This document shows positions 7,945 through 38,250 of a stretch of DNA of 40,995 nucleotides, piece after piece. The DNA comes from an uncultured Rubritalea sp. (lineage in GTDB: Bacteria; Verrucomicrobiota; Verrucomicrobiia; Verrucomicrobiales; Akkermansiaceae): positions 1-40,995 of the forward strand of contig CAKZNV010000154.1 in the NCBI GenBank assembly GCA_937132085.1, given 5' to 3'. Each line of letters opens with the position of its first letter. The stretch's first letter is position 1. The notes beneath the pieces are model-generated. The model had not been told where the DNA came from. It worked only from the letters and a program-made list of their open reading frames with translations, and ran no database searches. The position numbers were made by a program, and so were the translations under genes.

Positions 7945-7988
7945 TTTTCATGTTGATTTATCCGACTCATGTGAGAAGCTAATGAGTT

Positions 7989-8576
7989 ATGAAATCTAAA
8001 TTAATCATCGCTTGTTCAGTGGCCATTCTAATGGCCTCATGCAGCAAGAAAGAAACTGCAGCAACTCCTGAGGAGAAGCCAGCTGAGACACCAGTGGTAG
8101 CACCGGTTGAAAAGCCTGAAGTTATTGAAAAGAAAGAAGTCGTTCTGACACAGGTAGCGAGTGATCTTAAAGGTCATGTATATGCCTTAGAAGCTGATAA
8201 GTATGTATCAGCGGAGGTTTCTTCTGATGCAGAATACTATTTAATCTATGTATCAGCAAGTTGGTGACCACCTTGTAAAAGAGGAGCTCCACAGTTAGTG
8301 GAGAAGCACAATGAATTCATAGCTAATAATGATAAAGTTCAAATGATTCTAATGAGTCGTGAGAGAGGAAATAAAGCACAGGTCGAAGCGAGTGCCCTCA
8401 AGTGGGCTGTTAAGGAGAACTTTCCTTGGCTCACAGTCTTTGCCTATGATCGCCAGCTTGGTTTTTTAGCTGACCTTAAGACCAGATTTGTTCCGACTTA
8501 CATTCTAGTGGATAAAGATGGAAAAGAATTACTCAGAGGTGAAAACGAGATCTTTGAGAAGATCAAATCACTTTAA
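7989..8576 (+). CDS. Thioredoxin-fold selenolipoprotein, copy 1 (Sec93 at in-frame TGA)
   Basis: Read through the TGA at 8265-8267, this is one 195-residue protein. Residues 1-18 form a lipoprotein-type signal ending in MASC (Cys18). Residues 19-50 are a Pro/Glu/Lys/Ala linker. The rest is a tryparedoxin/TlpA-like thioredoxin fold: YLIYVSASW, then Sec93-Pro-Pro-Cys96, then KRGAPQLVEKHN, and the cis-Pro segment FVPTYILVDKDG near the C-terminus. TGA replaces the first active-site cysteine of WCPPC. A hairpin lies 20 nt after it. A pseudogene is unlikely because the downstream frame is intact and the neighbouring paralogue has TGA at the same site. It is probably a lipid-anchored thiol-disulfide enzyme outside the cytoplasm. 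Its substrate is unknown. Confidence 0.85.
8265..8303 (+). promoter_or_regulatory. Sec UGA codon and SECIS-like hairpin, copy 1
   Basis: UGA (8265-8267) is followed by C, a weak termination context. The hairpin is CTCCAC (8287-8292), loop AGTTA (8293-8297), GTGGAG (8298-8303). The loop begins 26 nt after the UGA and carries G as its second base. Both features fit the known bacterial SECIS pattern. The paralogue has the same stem and loop. Confidence 0.75.
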
Positions 8577-8601
8577 GTAATTACTTGAAATTGGTATTTT
8601 A

Positions 8602-8637
8602 ATGACCTCAGTCTCGATAGAGATTGGGGTCATATAG
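8602..8637 (+). terminator. Terminator after selenoprotein copy 1
   Basis: ATGACCTCAGTCTC pairs with GAGATTGGGGTCAT around a GATA loop (two G-U pairs), followed by ATAGTTTTT. The matching hairpin after copy 2 differs at paired positions in a compensatory way. Confidence 0.75.
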
Positions 8638-8706
8638 TTTTTATCCTGATAGTTACTTTAGTTTTTCATGTTGATTTATTGTCATGATGTGAGAAGTTAG
8701 CTCGTT

Positions 8707-9309
8707 ATGAAATCTAAATTAATAATTGCTTGTTCAGTAGCCGTAGCAATGGCTTCTTGTAGCAAGAAAGAAACTGCAGCTACTCCTGAAGAGAAGCCGG
8801 CTGAAACACCAGTGGAAGCACCGGTTGTTAAGCCAGTTGAAGCGCCAGTCGAAAAGCCAGTCGAAAAGCCAGTAGTCGTTCTGACAAAAGTAGCTGAGAG
8901 TCTTAAAGACATGACGTTCGCTCTTGAAGGAGATAAGTTTGTAAACAAAGATGTTTCTAATGATACAGAGTATTTTTTAGTCTATTTCTCTGCTAGTTGG
9001 TGACCACCTTGTAGATCTGGAGCTCCACAGTTAGTGGAGAAACACAACAGCTACGTTGCGACAAATGATAAAGTAGAAATGGTTCATGTGAGCTTAGAGC
9101 GAGGTGCTAATGGTGCTGATAAAGCTCTAAACTGGGCAAATAAGGAAGGTTTTCCTTGGTTGACCGTGATGCCTGGTAAAATGGGTGAGACTATTTTCAA
9201 AGATATCAAGGTGCAGTTCGTTCCTACCTACGTTCTCGTAGATAAAGACGGCAAAGAGCTACTCAGAGGCGAGAAAGAGGTTTTTGAGAAGATCAAATCA
9301 CTTAAGTAA
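8707..9309 (+). CDS. Thioredoxin-fold selenolipoprotein, copy 2 (Sec99 at in-frame TGA)
   Basis: This tandem paralogue of 7989-8576 has 200 residues when the TGA at 9001-9003 is read as selenocysteine. The signal peptide and Cys18 lipobox are nearly identical. The linker is about six residues longer and built of repeated PVEKP/PVEAP units. The active site reads YFSASW, Sec99-Pro-Pro-Cys102, RSGAPQLVEKHN, with the cis-Pro segment FVPTYVLVDKDG. The thioredoxin parts of the two copies have diverged clearly, yet the TGA, the PPC and the hairpin are retained. Frame continuity before and after the TGA argues against decay. It is likely an exported, membrane-tethered thiol oxidoreductase. Confidence 0.85.
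9001..9039 (+). promoter_or_regulatory. Sec UGA codon and SECIS-like hairpin, copy 2
   Basis: UGA (9001-9003) is followed by C. The stem is CTCCAC (9023-9028), loop AGTTA (9029-9033), GTGGAG (9034-9039), at the same 20-nt spacing as in copy 1. All synonymous positions from the codon before the stem through its 3' arm are identical to copy 1, while the codons just upstream differ. Confidence 0.75.
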
Positions 9310-9331
9310 TTATAACAATATTCATATTTTG

Positions 9332-9368
9332 AATAGCCTCAGTCTCGTATGAGATTGGGGCTATTTTA
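9332..9368 (+). terminator. Terminator after selenoprotein copy 2
   Basis: AATAGCCTCAGTCTC pairs with GAGATTGGGGCTATT around a GTAT loop, followed by TTATT. It is homologous to the hairpin at 8602-8637. Confidence 0.75.
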
Positions 9369-27257: not shown

Positions 27258-28400
27258 ATGAAAAAATTAACATCAGTAGCACTCGCTACACTAGGTCTCG
27301 TAAGCTTTGCTAACGCTCAAGCTACTAAGGAAGAAGTTCCAGCTAAGAAAGCAGACGCACCAGCAAAGCCAGCAACTGATAAGCTAGCAGTCGGTTCAGC
27401 AGCTCCAGCGATCGCAGGCGCTACTTGGGTTCAAGGCGAGGAAGTCTCTAAGCTAGATAAAGCAGGTGAACTATACATCGTAGAATGCTGGGCAACATGG
27501 TGTGGACCATGTGTAGCTATGATTCCTCACATGAACGATCTTCATAAGAGCTACGGAGACAAAGGTCTCACTATCGTAGGAATGAACGTCTGGGAAGACG
27601 GCCTCGATAAAGTAAAAGGATTTGTAAAAGAAAAAGGTGAAGGAATGAGCTATCGTATTGCTTACTCTGGCGGTCAGAAAAGCACATTCGCTGACACATG
27701 GCTCACACCTTCTGGAACTAAAGGGATTCCTACAGCATTCGCTGTAAAAGACGGTAAGATCATCTACATCGGTCACCCATCTGATCTTGAAGAAGACGTA
27801 GTCAAGCAGATGATGGGCAAAGATTTCGACGCTGCTAAGTTCGCTAAAGAGCAAGAAGCTAAGAAAGAAGCTGAAAAAGCATTCCACGCTAAGCTCCGCC
27901 CACTCATGCAGGCTCAAGACTGGGCAGCTGTTAAGACTCTCGCGACCACTGATCCTTTGACTAAAGGTAAGGACCTCGGTCTAAGACTTCTCATCCACGC
28001 TAACACAGCAACTAACGATTGGGACGCACTTTCAGCTCTAGCTACTGAAGTTAAAGCAGGAAAATTCGGTGAAAAGGCAACAGCAAACTCACTTGTCGTA
28101 ACATTCCTAGACGCTAAGACTGATGATAAAGTGAAGGCATTTGCTACTAAACTTATCCCAATGCTTGATACAAAAGCTCTCTCAGAGTCTGAAGACGTAA
28201 TGCAGAGAATGGGTTACGCTCGTGCTCTATTCATCACAGGCAAAGCAGAAGAGTCTCAGAAAGCAATCACTTCTGTTGTCGCTTTCATCAATGAAAAATA
28301 CAAAGGTAACAAAGGTGCTGAGGAGTTTGCTACTAAGCTAGCTTCTATCATTGAGAAAATCAAAGGTGGATCATTCCCACCAATGTCAGAACTTCGATAG
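27258..28400 (+). CDS. TlpA-like thioredoxin-domain protein, exported
   Basis: The 380-residue protein has a signal peptide (residues 1-20, cleavage after FANA), an Ala/Pro/Lys linker, and a TlpA/redoxin domain whose active site is WC82GPC85 (TWCGPC), with the cis-Pro segment KGIPTAFAVKDGK near residue 170. The last 190 residues are helical and lack cysteine; I do not recognise them. It is the ordinary cysteine counterpart of the two TGA-containing genes at 7989-9309 and probably works in the periplasm as a thiol-disulfide protein. It has its own terminator. Confidence 0.85.
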   Translation: MKKLTSVALATLGLVSFANAQATKEEVPAKKADAPAKPATDKLAVGSAAPAIAGATWVQGEEVSKLDKAGELYIVECWATWCGPCVAMIPHMNDLHKSYGDKGLTIVGMNVWEDGLDKVKGFVKEKGEGMSYRIAYSGGQKSTFADTWLTPSGTKGIPTAFAVKDGKIIYIGHPSDLEEDVVKQMMGKDFDAAKFAKEQEAKKEAEKAFHAKLRPLMQAQDWAAVKTLATTDPLTKGKDLGLRLLIHANTATNDWDALSALATEVKAGKFGEKATANSLVVTFLDAKTDDKVKAFATKLIPMLDTKALSESEDVMQRMGYARALFITGKAEESQKAITSVVAFINEKYKGNKGAEEFATKLASIIEKIKGGSFPPMSELR

Positions 28401-28560: not shown

Positions 28561-28641
28561 GCCGGTGTGGCGGAATTGGTAGACGCGTTCGATTCAAAAT
28601 CGAATTCCTATGGAGTGCGGGTTCGATTCCCGCCGCCGGTA
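28561..28641 (+). tRNA. tRNA-Leu (CAA)
   Basis: A class II tRNA of 81 nt. The acceptor GCCGGTG pairs with CGCCGGT (G-U at the first pair and one inside) with discriminator A. The anticodon stem is TTCGA/TCGAA around loop TTCAAAA, so the anticodon is CAA and it reads UUG. The T-arm is GCGGG TTCGATT CCCGC. The variable arm is 12 nt. CCA is not encoded. TTGACA lies about 50 nt upstream. Confidence 0.95.
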
Positions 28642-28706
28642 TTTTTCTATAAATGATAATAATTATCGTTTGATTTTATAGCGATTAGTGCGAGTATTCA
28701 GATGTA

Positions 28707-28742
28707 GCTGATCTCAACAATCAGCCAGTAGTTTCAAACTAC
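28707..28742 (+). other. Paired hairpins between tRNA-Leu and tmRNA
   Basis: GCTGAT (28707-28712) pairs with ATCAGC (28720-28725), and GTAGTTT (28728-28734) pairs with AAACTAC (28736-28742). They lie in the 115-nt gap before the tmRNA. They may shape the precursor for processing or belong to the tmRNA promoter region. No T-run is present. Confidence 0.4.
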
Positions 28743-28756
28743 GCCACAGCTAATGT

Positions 28757-29113
28757 GGGGGCGTTTTGGTTTCGACTGGATGTTGGAAGGATAGGTCGCA
28801 TGTAGAGGTTGATCGGCTGGCCTCTTAAAAAGCCGTTCAAAAAAATAATTGCAGACTCTAACGAGCTAGCACTTGCTGCTTAATTGCCGCAAACGCCGCC
28901 GCCTGATCGTTCACGTAAGGTCGCCGCGAAAAACTAGTGAACTGGCCATGATCTCGGGTTTCCGGAGAGATTGGTAAGACTAAACAGGAAAATCGAGAAG
29001 GCGTAAGTTGTTAGCATGCGATCGCCTCTCTAAACAAAAGTTGCTAACTAAACATGTAGAAGCTTACTTGAAAGGCATTTAGGACACGGGTTCGACCCCC
29101 GTCGCCTCCACCA
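28757..29113 (+). ncRNA. ssrA: Transfer-messenger RNA (tmRNA)
   Basis: This RNA rescues stalled ribosomes together with SmpB. The 5' end GGGGGCG pairs with 3' CGCCTCC, followed by A and an encoded CCA (29111-29113). The 5' part carries the conserved TTTTGGTTTCGACTGG, and the 3' end the T-arm GGGTTCGACCCCC. The tag reading frame runs 28851-28883 and encodes ADSNELALAA before TAA; the LALAA end is the usual protease signal. The total length of 357 nt is normal. It follows tRNA-Leu(CAA) by 115 nt. Confidence 0.95.
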
Positions 29114-30198: not shown

Positions 30199-30765
30199 AT
30201 GGAACCAACACAAGCAATATCAGAAATGGAAATGGCTATGGAACAAGCCGTGGAATATATGGGTAAAGAGTTCGCATCAGTGCGCACAGGTAAGGCATCA
30301 CCAGCGCTCGTAGAGAATGTGAATGTAGAAGTGAAAGCTTACGGCAGCAAAATGAAACTCCGTGATCTAGCTATCATTACTACTCCTGAGCCACGCCAGA
30401 TCGTGATCCAACCACACGACCCTAGCACCGCTGATGATATCGACCGTGCGATCCGTGAAGCTCAACTCGGCTTCAACCCAGTAAACGAAGGCAAGCGTCT
30501 CCGTCTACCAATCCCAGAACTGAACGAAGAACGCCGCCAGGAAATGGTAAAGCGTGTCCGCACCATCAGTGAAGAATCTAAAGTAAGAATCCGTGGCTGC
30601 CGTAAAGATGCAATGGATGCAGGCAAGAAAATGAAGAGCGAGAAAGTTCTTACTGATGACTCTGCAAGAGACTTTGAAGGAGAAGTGCAGGATATTACTA
30701 ATAAATACACTAAGAAGATCGACGAAGAATCAGCTTCTAAAGAAAAAGAAGTAATGACAGTTTGA
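30199..30765 (+). CDS. frr: Ribosome recycling factor
   Basis: RRF with EF-G splits post-termination ribosomes. The 188 residues show the family pattern: FASVRTGKASPALVENVNVEVKAYGSKMKLRDLAIITTPEPRQIVIQPHDPS, GFNPVNEGKRLRLPIPELNEERRQEMVK, and the long C-terminal helix. It uses TGA as its real stop at the expected length, which shows that TGA still ends translation in this genome. It lies between pyrH and trxB. Confidence 0.97.
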   Translation: MEPTQAISEMEMAMEQAVEYMGKEFASVRTGKASPALVENVNVEVKAYGSKMKLRDLAIITTPEPRQIVIQPHDPSTADDIDRAIREAQLGFNPVNEGKRLRLPIPELNEERRQEMVKRVRTISEESKVRIRGCRKDAMDAGKKMKSEKVLTDDSARDFEGEVQDITNKYTKKIDEESASKEKEVMTV

Positions 30766-38180: not shown

Positions 38181-38204
38181 GCACGGAGCACGGAGCACGG
38201 AGCA
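38181..38204. repeat. GCACGGA tandem repeat
   Basis: Three full 7-nt units plus three bases. The reverse complement word TCCGTGC recurs in the array at 38327-38352, so the two blocks face each other across 122 nt. Both lie in the gap 38171-38423, which holds no gene. Confidence 0.75.
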
Positions 38205-38230
38205 GTCCTGGAGGGACGACATGTTCAAAG

Positions 38231-38250
38231 CCTAGGACTTCAGTCCTAGG
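38231..38250. repeat. Perfect palindrome CCTAGGAC/GTCCTAGG
   Basis: Eight-base arms flank a TTCA loop between the two GCACGGA/TCCGTGC arrays. There is no T-run, so it is not an obvious terminator, but it would form a stable hairpin in RNA. Confidence 0.7.

Follow-up and report, generated by a model that had tools for sequence, protein, structure and literature searches.

StoA, ResA, TlpA and DsbE are extracytoplasmic oxidoreductases whose active sites carry cysteine, and StoA, ResA, DsbE and tryparedoxin act as reductants. Selenocysteine-containing relatives with a UxxC motif have also been described. As far as the accessible parts of these sources go, a thiol-disulfide isomerase-like UxxC family first came from the Sargasso Sea paper (PMC1088965) and stands under Thioredoxin_8 (pfam13905)/cd02966 in reviews of 2022 and 2026 (PMC9312934, PMC13188914). 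The accessible portion of the GOS survey lists Trx-like 1 (COG0526) and Trx-like 2 (cd02953), both UxxC, and also SelD among its selenoprotein families (PMC2398784), and one published table, likewise in its accessible part, gives the NF041057 Rcas_1661 family as DsbG-like with UxxC. The string 'verrucomicrob' is absent from the available main text of the selenoprotein papers checked, and among the matches listed in the open-licence literature there was no recognised account of a UPPC family or of a selenocysteine DsbD in the order Verrucomicrobiales.

The locus described here lies in a window of 40,995 nucleotides, the whole stretch of DNA that was analysed, from an uncultured Rubritalea sp. 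of that order. Two genes, copies A and B, follow one another on the forward strand between what are presumably cysS-like and hemB-like genes, named from a reading of their translations. The features of the pair are the following.

7945..7988, + strand: 5' leader of copy A, repeated ahead of copy B
7989..8576, + strand: copy A, predicted selenocysteine-containing thioredoxin-like lipoprotein, 195 aa, U93
7989..8042, + strand: putative signal peptide and lipobox LMAS-C18 of copy A (sequence, simple heuristic)
8265..8267, + strand: predicted selenocysteine UGA of copy A, first active-site position of UPPC
8287..8303, + strand: SECIS hairpin of copy A, CUCCAC-AGUUA-GUGGAG, loop 25 nt past the UGA
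8602..8633, + strand: terminator-like hairpin 3' of copy A, -22.9 kcal/mol, z -5.55
8663..8706, + strand: 5' leader of copy B
8707..9309, + strand: copy B, predicted selenocysteine-containing thioredoxin-like lipoprotein, 200 aa, U99
8707..8760, + strand: putative signal peptide and lipobox AMAS-C18 of copy B (sequence, simple heuristic)
9001..9003, + strand: predicted selenocysteine UGA of copy B
9023..9039, + strand: SECIS hairpin of copy B, CUCCAC-AGUUA-GUGGAG, loop 25 nt past the UGA
9331..9366, + strand: terminator-like hairpin 3' of copy B, -26.2 kcal/mol, z -5.59, inner part 9341-9362

Elsewhere the window holds a Redoxin/thioredoxin-like protein with an ordinary WCGPC (27258-28400), an Acido-Lenti-1 RNA match on the reverse strand (38204-38250, 45.5 bits against a cut-off of 37) and a borderline permuted-tmRNA Rfam match (28583-28883, 48 bits against 47), which overlaps a standard tmRNA.

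Copy A runs from the ATG at 7989 to the TAA at 8574-8576, and copy B from the ATG at 8707 to the TAA at 9307-9309. An earlier note on this DNA had claimed that both genes keep one reading frame across a TGA placed at the first cysteine of a WCPPC site, and this is what the frames contain: a single TGA each, within SASW-U-PPC. Also as that note had it, the standard code splits each gene into two ORFs (92 and 92 aa in copy A, 98 and 91 aa in copy B), and the resemblance to thioredoxins extends across the TGA, since the readthrough products hit Pfam Thioredoxin_8 with E-values of 1e-7 and 9.6e-13 (32.6 and 48.7 bits; cut-off 27); Redoxin and AhpC-TSA are among the other Pfam matches. The two proteins are 68% identical. 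Upstream of the TGA the pair has a dN/dS of about 0.31 (dN 0.39, dS 1.27) and downstream of it one of 0.20 (dN 0.30, dS 1.49), both with a dS above 1 and hence near saturation, and the latter value makes the part past the TGA look to be under protein constraint.

AlphaFold models copy B with a mean pLDDT of 88.8, the thioredoxin fold of residues 61-200 being confident and the N-terminal part low in confidence. In the PDB the best Foldseek match is StoA, followed closely by a worm thioredoxin, tryparedoxin, DsbE and ResA; among the matches listed, query TM-scores range over 0.42-0.53 and target TM-scores over 0.55-0.72. The window copies have their fold and likely location in common with the StoA/ResA/TlpA/DsbE oxidoreductases, and they miss the NCBIfam cut-offs for StoA, ResA, DsbE and TlpA (at most 31.3 bits against 123-359). 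A lipobox-like M-A-S-C stands behind a hydrophobic stretch in both copies, and on this motif heuristic both are likely to be lipid-anchored. The name of the NF041057 family denotes a thioredoxin-like (seleno)lipoprotein, which the window copies are predicted to be as well; membership in it was rejected, the scores being 12.0 and 11.3 bits against 190 and confined to the N-terminal signal and linker.

In their Thioredoxin_8 match, selenocysteine as the first residue of UxxC, bacterial SECIS and cysteine homologues, the window genes resemble the Sargasso Sea UxxC family as its accessible account describes it; unlike that family they have a lipobox and form a tandem pair, and the likeness is drawn through published tables. 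Trx-like 1 (COG0526), as given in the part of the GOS survey available, is a further point of comparison (PMC2398784). The earlier note granted that selenocysteine thioredoxin-like families exist and did not recognise the present arrangement; the kind of protein is already catalogued, both in the UxxC Thioredoxin_8/cd02966 tables, in so far as these are accessible, and in NCBIfam as a Trx-like (seleno)lipoprotein. The window genes, as predicted selenoproteins, fit the catalogued UxxC type, of which they are a new member and a lineage expansion.

The host assembly (4.46 Mb, 254 contigs, 98.7% complete) contains all four of selA, selB, selC and selD, the genes for which the earlier note had proposed a search. 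SelA scores 502.6 bits against a cut-off of 268, SelB 305.6 against 242 and SelD 373.4 against 125, and the tRNA-Sec, with anticodon TCA, scores 58.3 against 47, with ARAGORN in agreement. Besides copies A and B, three host genes have a TGA of the selenocysteine type. SelD is itself a predicted selenoprotein, with an in-frame TGA at SCGGU (L185:1486-2529, contig C201) and a hairpin ACGCA-AGUUU-UGCGU about 32 nt past the UGA; its family is unrelated to the thioredoxin-like copies, yet it has the same AGUU loop. The second is a DsbD, described below, and the third a further paralogue (L020:1501-2007, contig C110) with SASWUPPC, a hairpin loop AGUUU and a signal-peptide-like N-terminus in which no lipobox was scored.

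The bSECIS model, as set out in the accessible part of its description, allows a loop of 3-9 nt, an upper stem of 4-16 bp, a G in the first two loop positions, a distance of 16-37 nt from the UGA and an MFE of at most -7.5 (PMC13188914). Both copies fall within this model, with the loop AGUUA, 6 bp, G in second place and 25 nt. The 45 nt past the UGA fold at -12.5 kcal/mol in copy A and -10.0 kcal/mol in copy B; set against dinucleotide shuffles, copy A has a z of -2.77 and copy B, at -0.85, is no better than the shuffles. A scan of the genome with a model of the hairpin returned the window copies and the third paralogue, followed by a gap to E 0.31; it misses SelD and DsbD, so that it is no general SECIS finder.

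The family has a match in 310 of 386 genomes of the order, 150 rows being the matches listed. At the column of the first cysteine, the fetched loci, which take in 20 of 40 further Cys-type regions and leave out one listed TGA region (G187:C20), have U in 108 rows, C in 23 and D in one, and removal of duplicates leaves 104 U and 23 Cys homologues. The expectation of the earlier note that relatives would have TGA or cysteine here, and not random stops, is thus borne out. Where a TGA lies inside the domain, it falls in this column in 108 of 109 fetched rows, with no second TGA, the exception being G197. The U set reads UGPC in 49 cases, UPPC in 41, UGGC in eight and six singletons, and the second cysteine is kept in 103 of the 104. 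The remaining homologue (L074, G249) reads UPSA and is possibly in decay. On the protein tree the U and C labels need 6 changes against 20.6 when shuffled, window copies A and B are sisters (SH-aLRT 97), and the close pair L087/L113 (99) suggests that switching between U and C has been recent. Beyond the order, a phylum sample of 387 genomes had no internal stops among the matches listed, and a wider contig scan gave one weak match, in a Chryseobacterium MAG (L051).

The hairpin follows the TGA through this set. A loop A-G-N-U starting 25 nt past the TGA occurs in 104 of 104 TGA genes, and a stem of at least four contiguous pairs at that fixed position in 74 of them, where synonymous shuffles lead one to expect 12.5 and reach at most 24 in 500 rounds; the other 30 have fewer than four. 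Among the Cys homologues such a stem occurs in 6 of 23, against 3.2 expected and a shuffle maximum of 7. With the position left free, folding gives a hairpin in 75 of 104 TGA genes against 30.4, and in 8 of 23 Cys homologues against 6.0. The stem also covaries: 91.8% of cells are paired against 79.7% in shuffles, and both partners of the pair have changed in 49 cells, compared with 6.0 when shuffled and 6-17 in slid versions; such changes affect all six stem pairs, the sole measure that is not clear-cut, as 21 of 500 shuffles reach it too. These hairpin and covariation counts are not independent, because the sequences are related; when the TGA genes are thinned to 20 with less than 50% identity, AG is found in 20 of 20 loops and a stem of at least four pairs in 14. 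One divergent clade with SASWUGGC (L104, L105, L106, L109, L110, L111) keeps the AGUU loop, its stem sequence being mostly rewritten.

The same material bears on the possibility that the genes are paralogues in decay and their TGAs ordinary nonsense mutations or errors of sequencing. Nonsense codons do exist in the wider family: G097 has an internal TAG in its family match, and G080 (genus code g2, L183), with no selB above the cut-off, has a TGA at the tryptophan of SASWCGPC, which on its sequence is to be read as a plain nonsense codon adjoining the selenocysteine site. A TAA or TAG also lies within the match of two TGA rows (G354, G244). Against decay stand the one column shared by the TGAs of 104 distinct genes, none of which has another in the domain, the apparent constraint past the TGA in the window pair, the covarying hairpin and the co-occurrence with selB given next, and we regard decay as extremely improbable.

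SelB is above the cut-off in 104 of the 386 genomes, and three more, with matches of 208-238 bits, were counted as having partial copies. Among the matches listed, 77 genomes have TGA genes, and 71 of these have selB (69 above the cut-off, two partial) and six do not; the remaining genomes of the order comprise 36 with selB and 273 without (odds ratio 90, p 8e-43, for TGA genes from the matches listed in 386 genomes). G197, whose gene reads WCPPC and has its TGA elsewhere, was left out of this count, which lowered the TGA genomes from 78 to 77. Five of the six TGA genomes lacking selB have selA above the cut-off, and the sixth (G230) is 54% complete. Of 38 genomes whose listed matches are all non-TGA, 33 have no selB.

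A genome-wide reading of TGA as tryptophan, cysteine or another standard amino acid, or its reading by a suppressor tRNA, could point to the rarity of TGA as a stop, a use seen in just one of 36 hand-picked window genes (30199-30765). The complete selenocysteine machinery with its tRNA-Sec (TCA), the use of TGG for the tryptophan that directly precedes the TGA, the hairpin specific to TGA genes and the occurrence of the Cys forms in genomes mostly devoid of selB all argue against it, and its probability is minimal. Both the nonsense-mutation and the code-change readings were rejected, on column conservation and the TGA-specific hairpin. The TGA in copies A and B is near certainly read as selenocysteine, to go by these comparisons.

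The two copies arose by a head-to-tail tandem duplication of a self-contained gene. Repeats 718-736 nt apart span leader, gene and terminator; since the duplicated unit takes in the leader and the terminator-like hairpin, each copy looks like a separate gene. Paired changes separate the two terminators near the foot of their stems. The segment reaching from the UGA to the end of the SECIS hairpin ranks among the best-conserved DNA of the two copies. The earlier note had found a tandem lipid-anchored pair unfamiliar. The pairing as such is not peculiar to this window: among the matches listed, 14 genomes, the host included, have such close pairs of UxxC genes in the same orientation, at 16 loci in all and with 495-1014 nt from one UGA to the next, and ten of the 14 belong to genus code g11, where at 12 loci a lipobox gene lies just 5' of a partner that has RTWTS at its N-terminus and is predicted to be secreted. 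The window copies cluster on the tree and the g11 partners fall in separate clades, so that pairs arose more than once. A side-by-side pair of clear lipobox copies, however, was found only in this window among the U genes scored by the heuristic, which detects a lipobox in 23 of 103 U genes. In the G250 cluster the third gene has a weaker LST-C, which the heuristic leaves unscored.

A possible source of electrons is encoded in the same genome. The full-length host DsbD (L132:895-3228, reverse strand, contig C107) comprises DsbD_N, DsbD_TM and Thioredoxin_7, and carries a TGA in frame where its C-terminal domain would have its first cysteine (VDFTADT-U-VTC), with a hairpin GAGAAC-AGUGU-GUUCUC. 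Two further DsbD_TM-like matches in the host lie in a 238-aa protein (L133) and, below the cut-off, in a frame of 1385 aa (L134). Selenocysteine in an interchange-protein domain is also found in Trx-like 2 (cd02953, UxxC), by the accessible account of that family, a kind that the host DsbD fits, and in TsoB; the host DsbD scores 137 bits against the TsoB cut-off of 805. We take cd02953 to be the DsbD gamma domain. In the alignment of 30 best-match loci, the host among them, U occupies the first-Cys column in 29, which is no rate, as these loci were chosen as the top matches of a U-type query. By eye, 26 of the 29 loci with U have a hairpin loop 23-25 nt past the UGA (not L204, L220 and L222); G244 has a cysteine in its DsbD, no such hairpin, and selA with no selB match. 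A DsbD with TGA occurs in at least 45 genomes among the matches listed, 39 of them with selB.

Taken as a whole, the best explanation, which we hold to be very probably correct on the sequence evidence, is a tandem pair of selenocysteine thioredoxin-fold lipoproteins that arose from a duplicated gene, are decoded by the genome's own selenocysteine system and hairpin, and may be fed by DsbD. SelA, SelB, SelC and SelD would decode the UGA as selenocysteine, directed by the AGUUA-loop hairpin 25 nt on, and selenocysteine would be the catalytic first residue of W-U-P-P-C in both paralogues, which stem from a head-to-tail duplication of a gene with its leader and terminator. The protein would be exported, anchored by lipid at Cys18 and face the periplasm. 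Its selenolate would attack oxidised substrates, either disulfides or sulfenic acids, the second cysteine would resolve the selenenylsulfide, and electrons may arrive through membrane DsbD by way of its selenocysteine-type C-terminal thioredoxin domain (DTUVTC).

The presence of an in-frame UGA, which can be read as a stop too, raises the question of whether it might mainly serve as a selenium-dependent switch, giving a truncated lipoprotein at low selenium and the enzyme at high selenium, the more so as the N-terminal part alone retains the lipobox and linker. Besides the SECIS hairpin no regulatory element was noticed, and the same UGA site is found in homologues without a scored lipobox, both of which speak against a switch; we consider it very unlikely. 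The stronger competitor is a selenocysteine thiol oxidoreductase mainly for disulfide formation, isomerisation or peroxidase-type work that does not need DsbD. Redoxin and AhpC-TSA among the Pfam matches favour it, as does the distribution of the two gene types: among the matches listed for 107 selB-positive genomes, the TGA types of DsbD and of the thioredoxins occur independently of each other (27/44/12/24, p 0.68), so that a DsbD relay is possible in the host and not obligatory across the order. The neighbours give no hint of a substrate either; across 19 fetched loci and the window, no conserved neighbour pointed to one, and no family was common beyond pairs of loci, except the genes themselves and an overlapping opposite-strand frame. 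The place of StoA, ResA, DsbE and tryparedoxin, reductants all, among the top fold matches weighs slightly against a non-reductant role, an argument made weak by the failure to reach any curated subfamily cut-off. A DsbD-independent role appears to us unlikely, though a good deal less so than a switch; our best guess, with chances about even, is a reductant of the periplasm that receives its electrons from DsbD.

For the order as a whole, the splitting of such genes by the standard code means that a widespread thiol-redox family can go unnoticed throughout it. The 104 selenocysteine and 23 cysteine homologues, some with the SECIS hairpin and others lacking it, form a good set on the retention and loss of selenium. 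We put forward, tentatively and as somewhat short of an even chance, an extracytoplasmic selenium relay, in which a selenocysteine DsbD would pass electrons to two lipid-anchored and one predicted secreted selenocysteine paralogue, and whose donor and acceptors would have switched repeatedly between selenium and sulfur in the order. With selenocysteine-type sites in DsbD as well as in the proteins that it may serve, a faster, selenium-based export of electrons from the cytoplasm becomes open to test.
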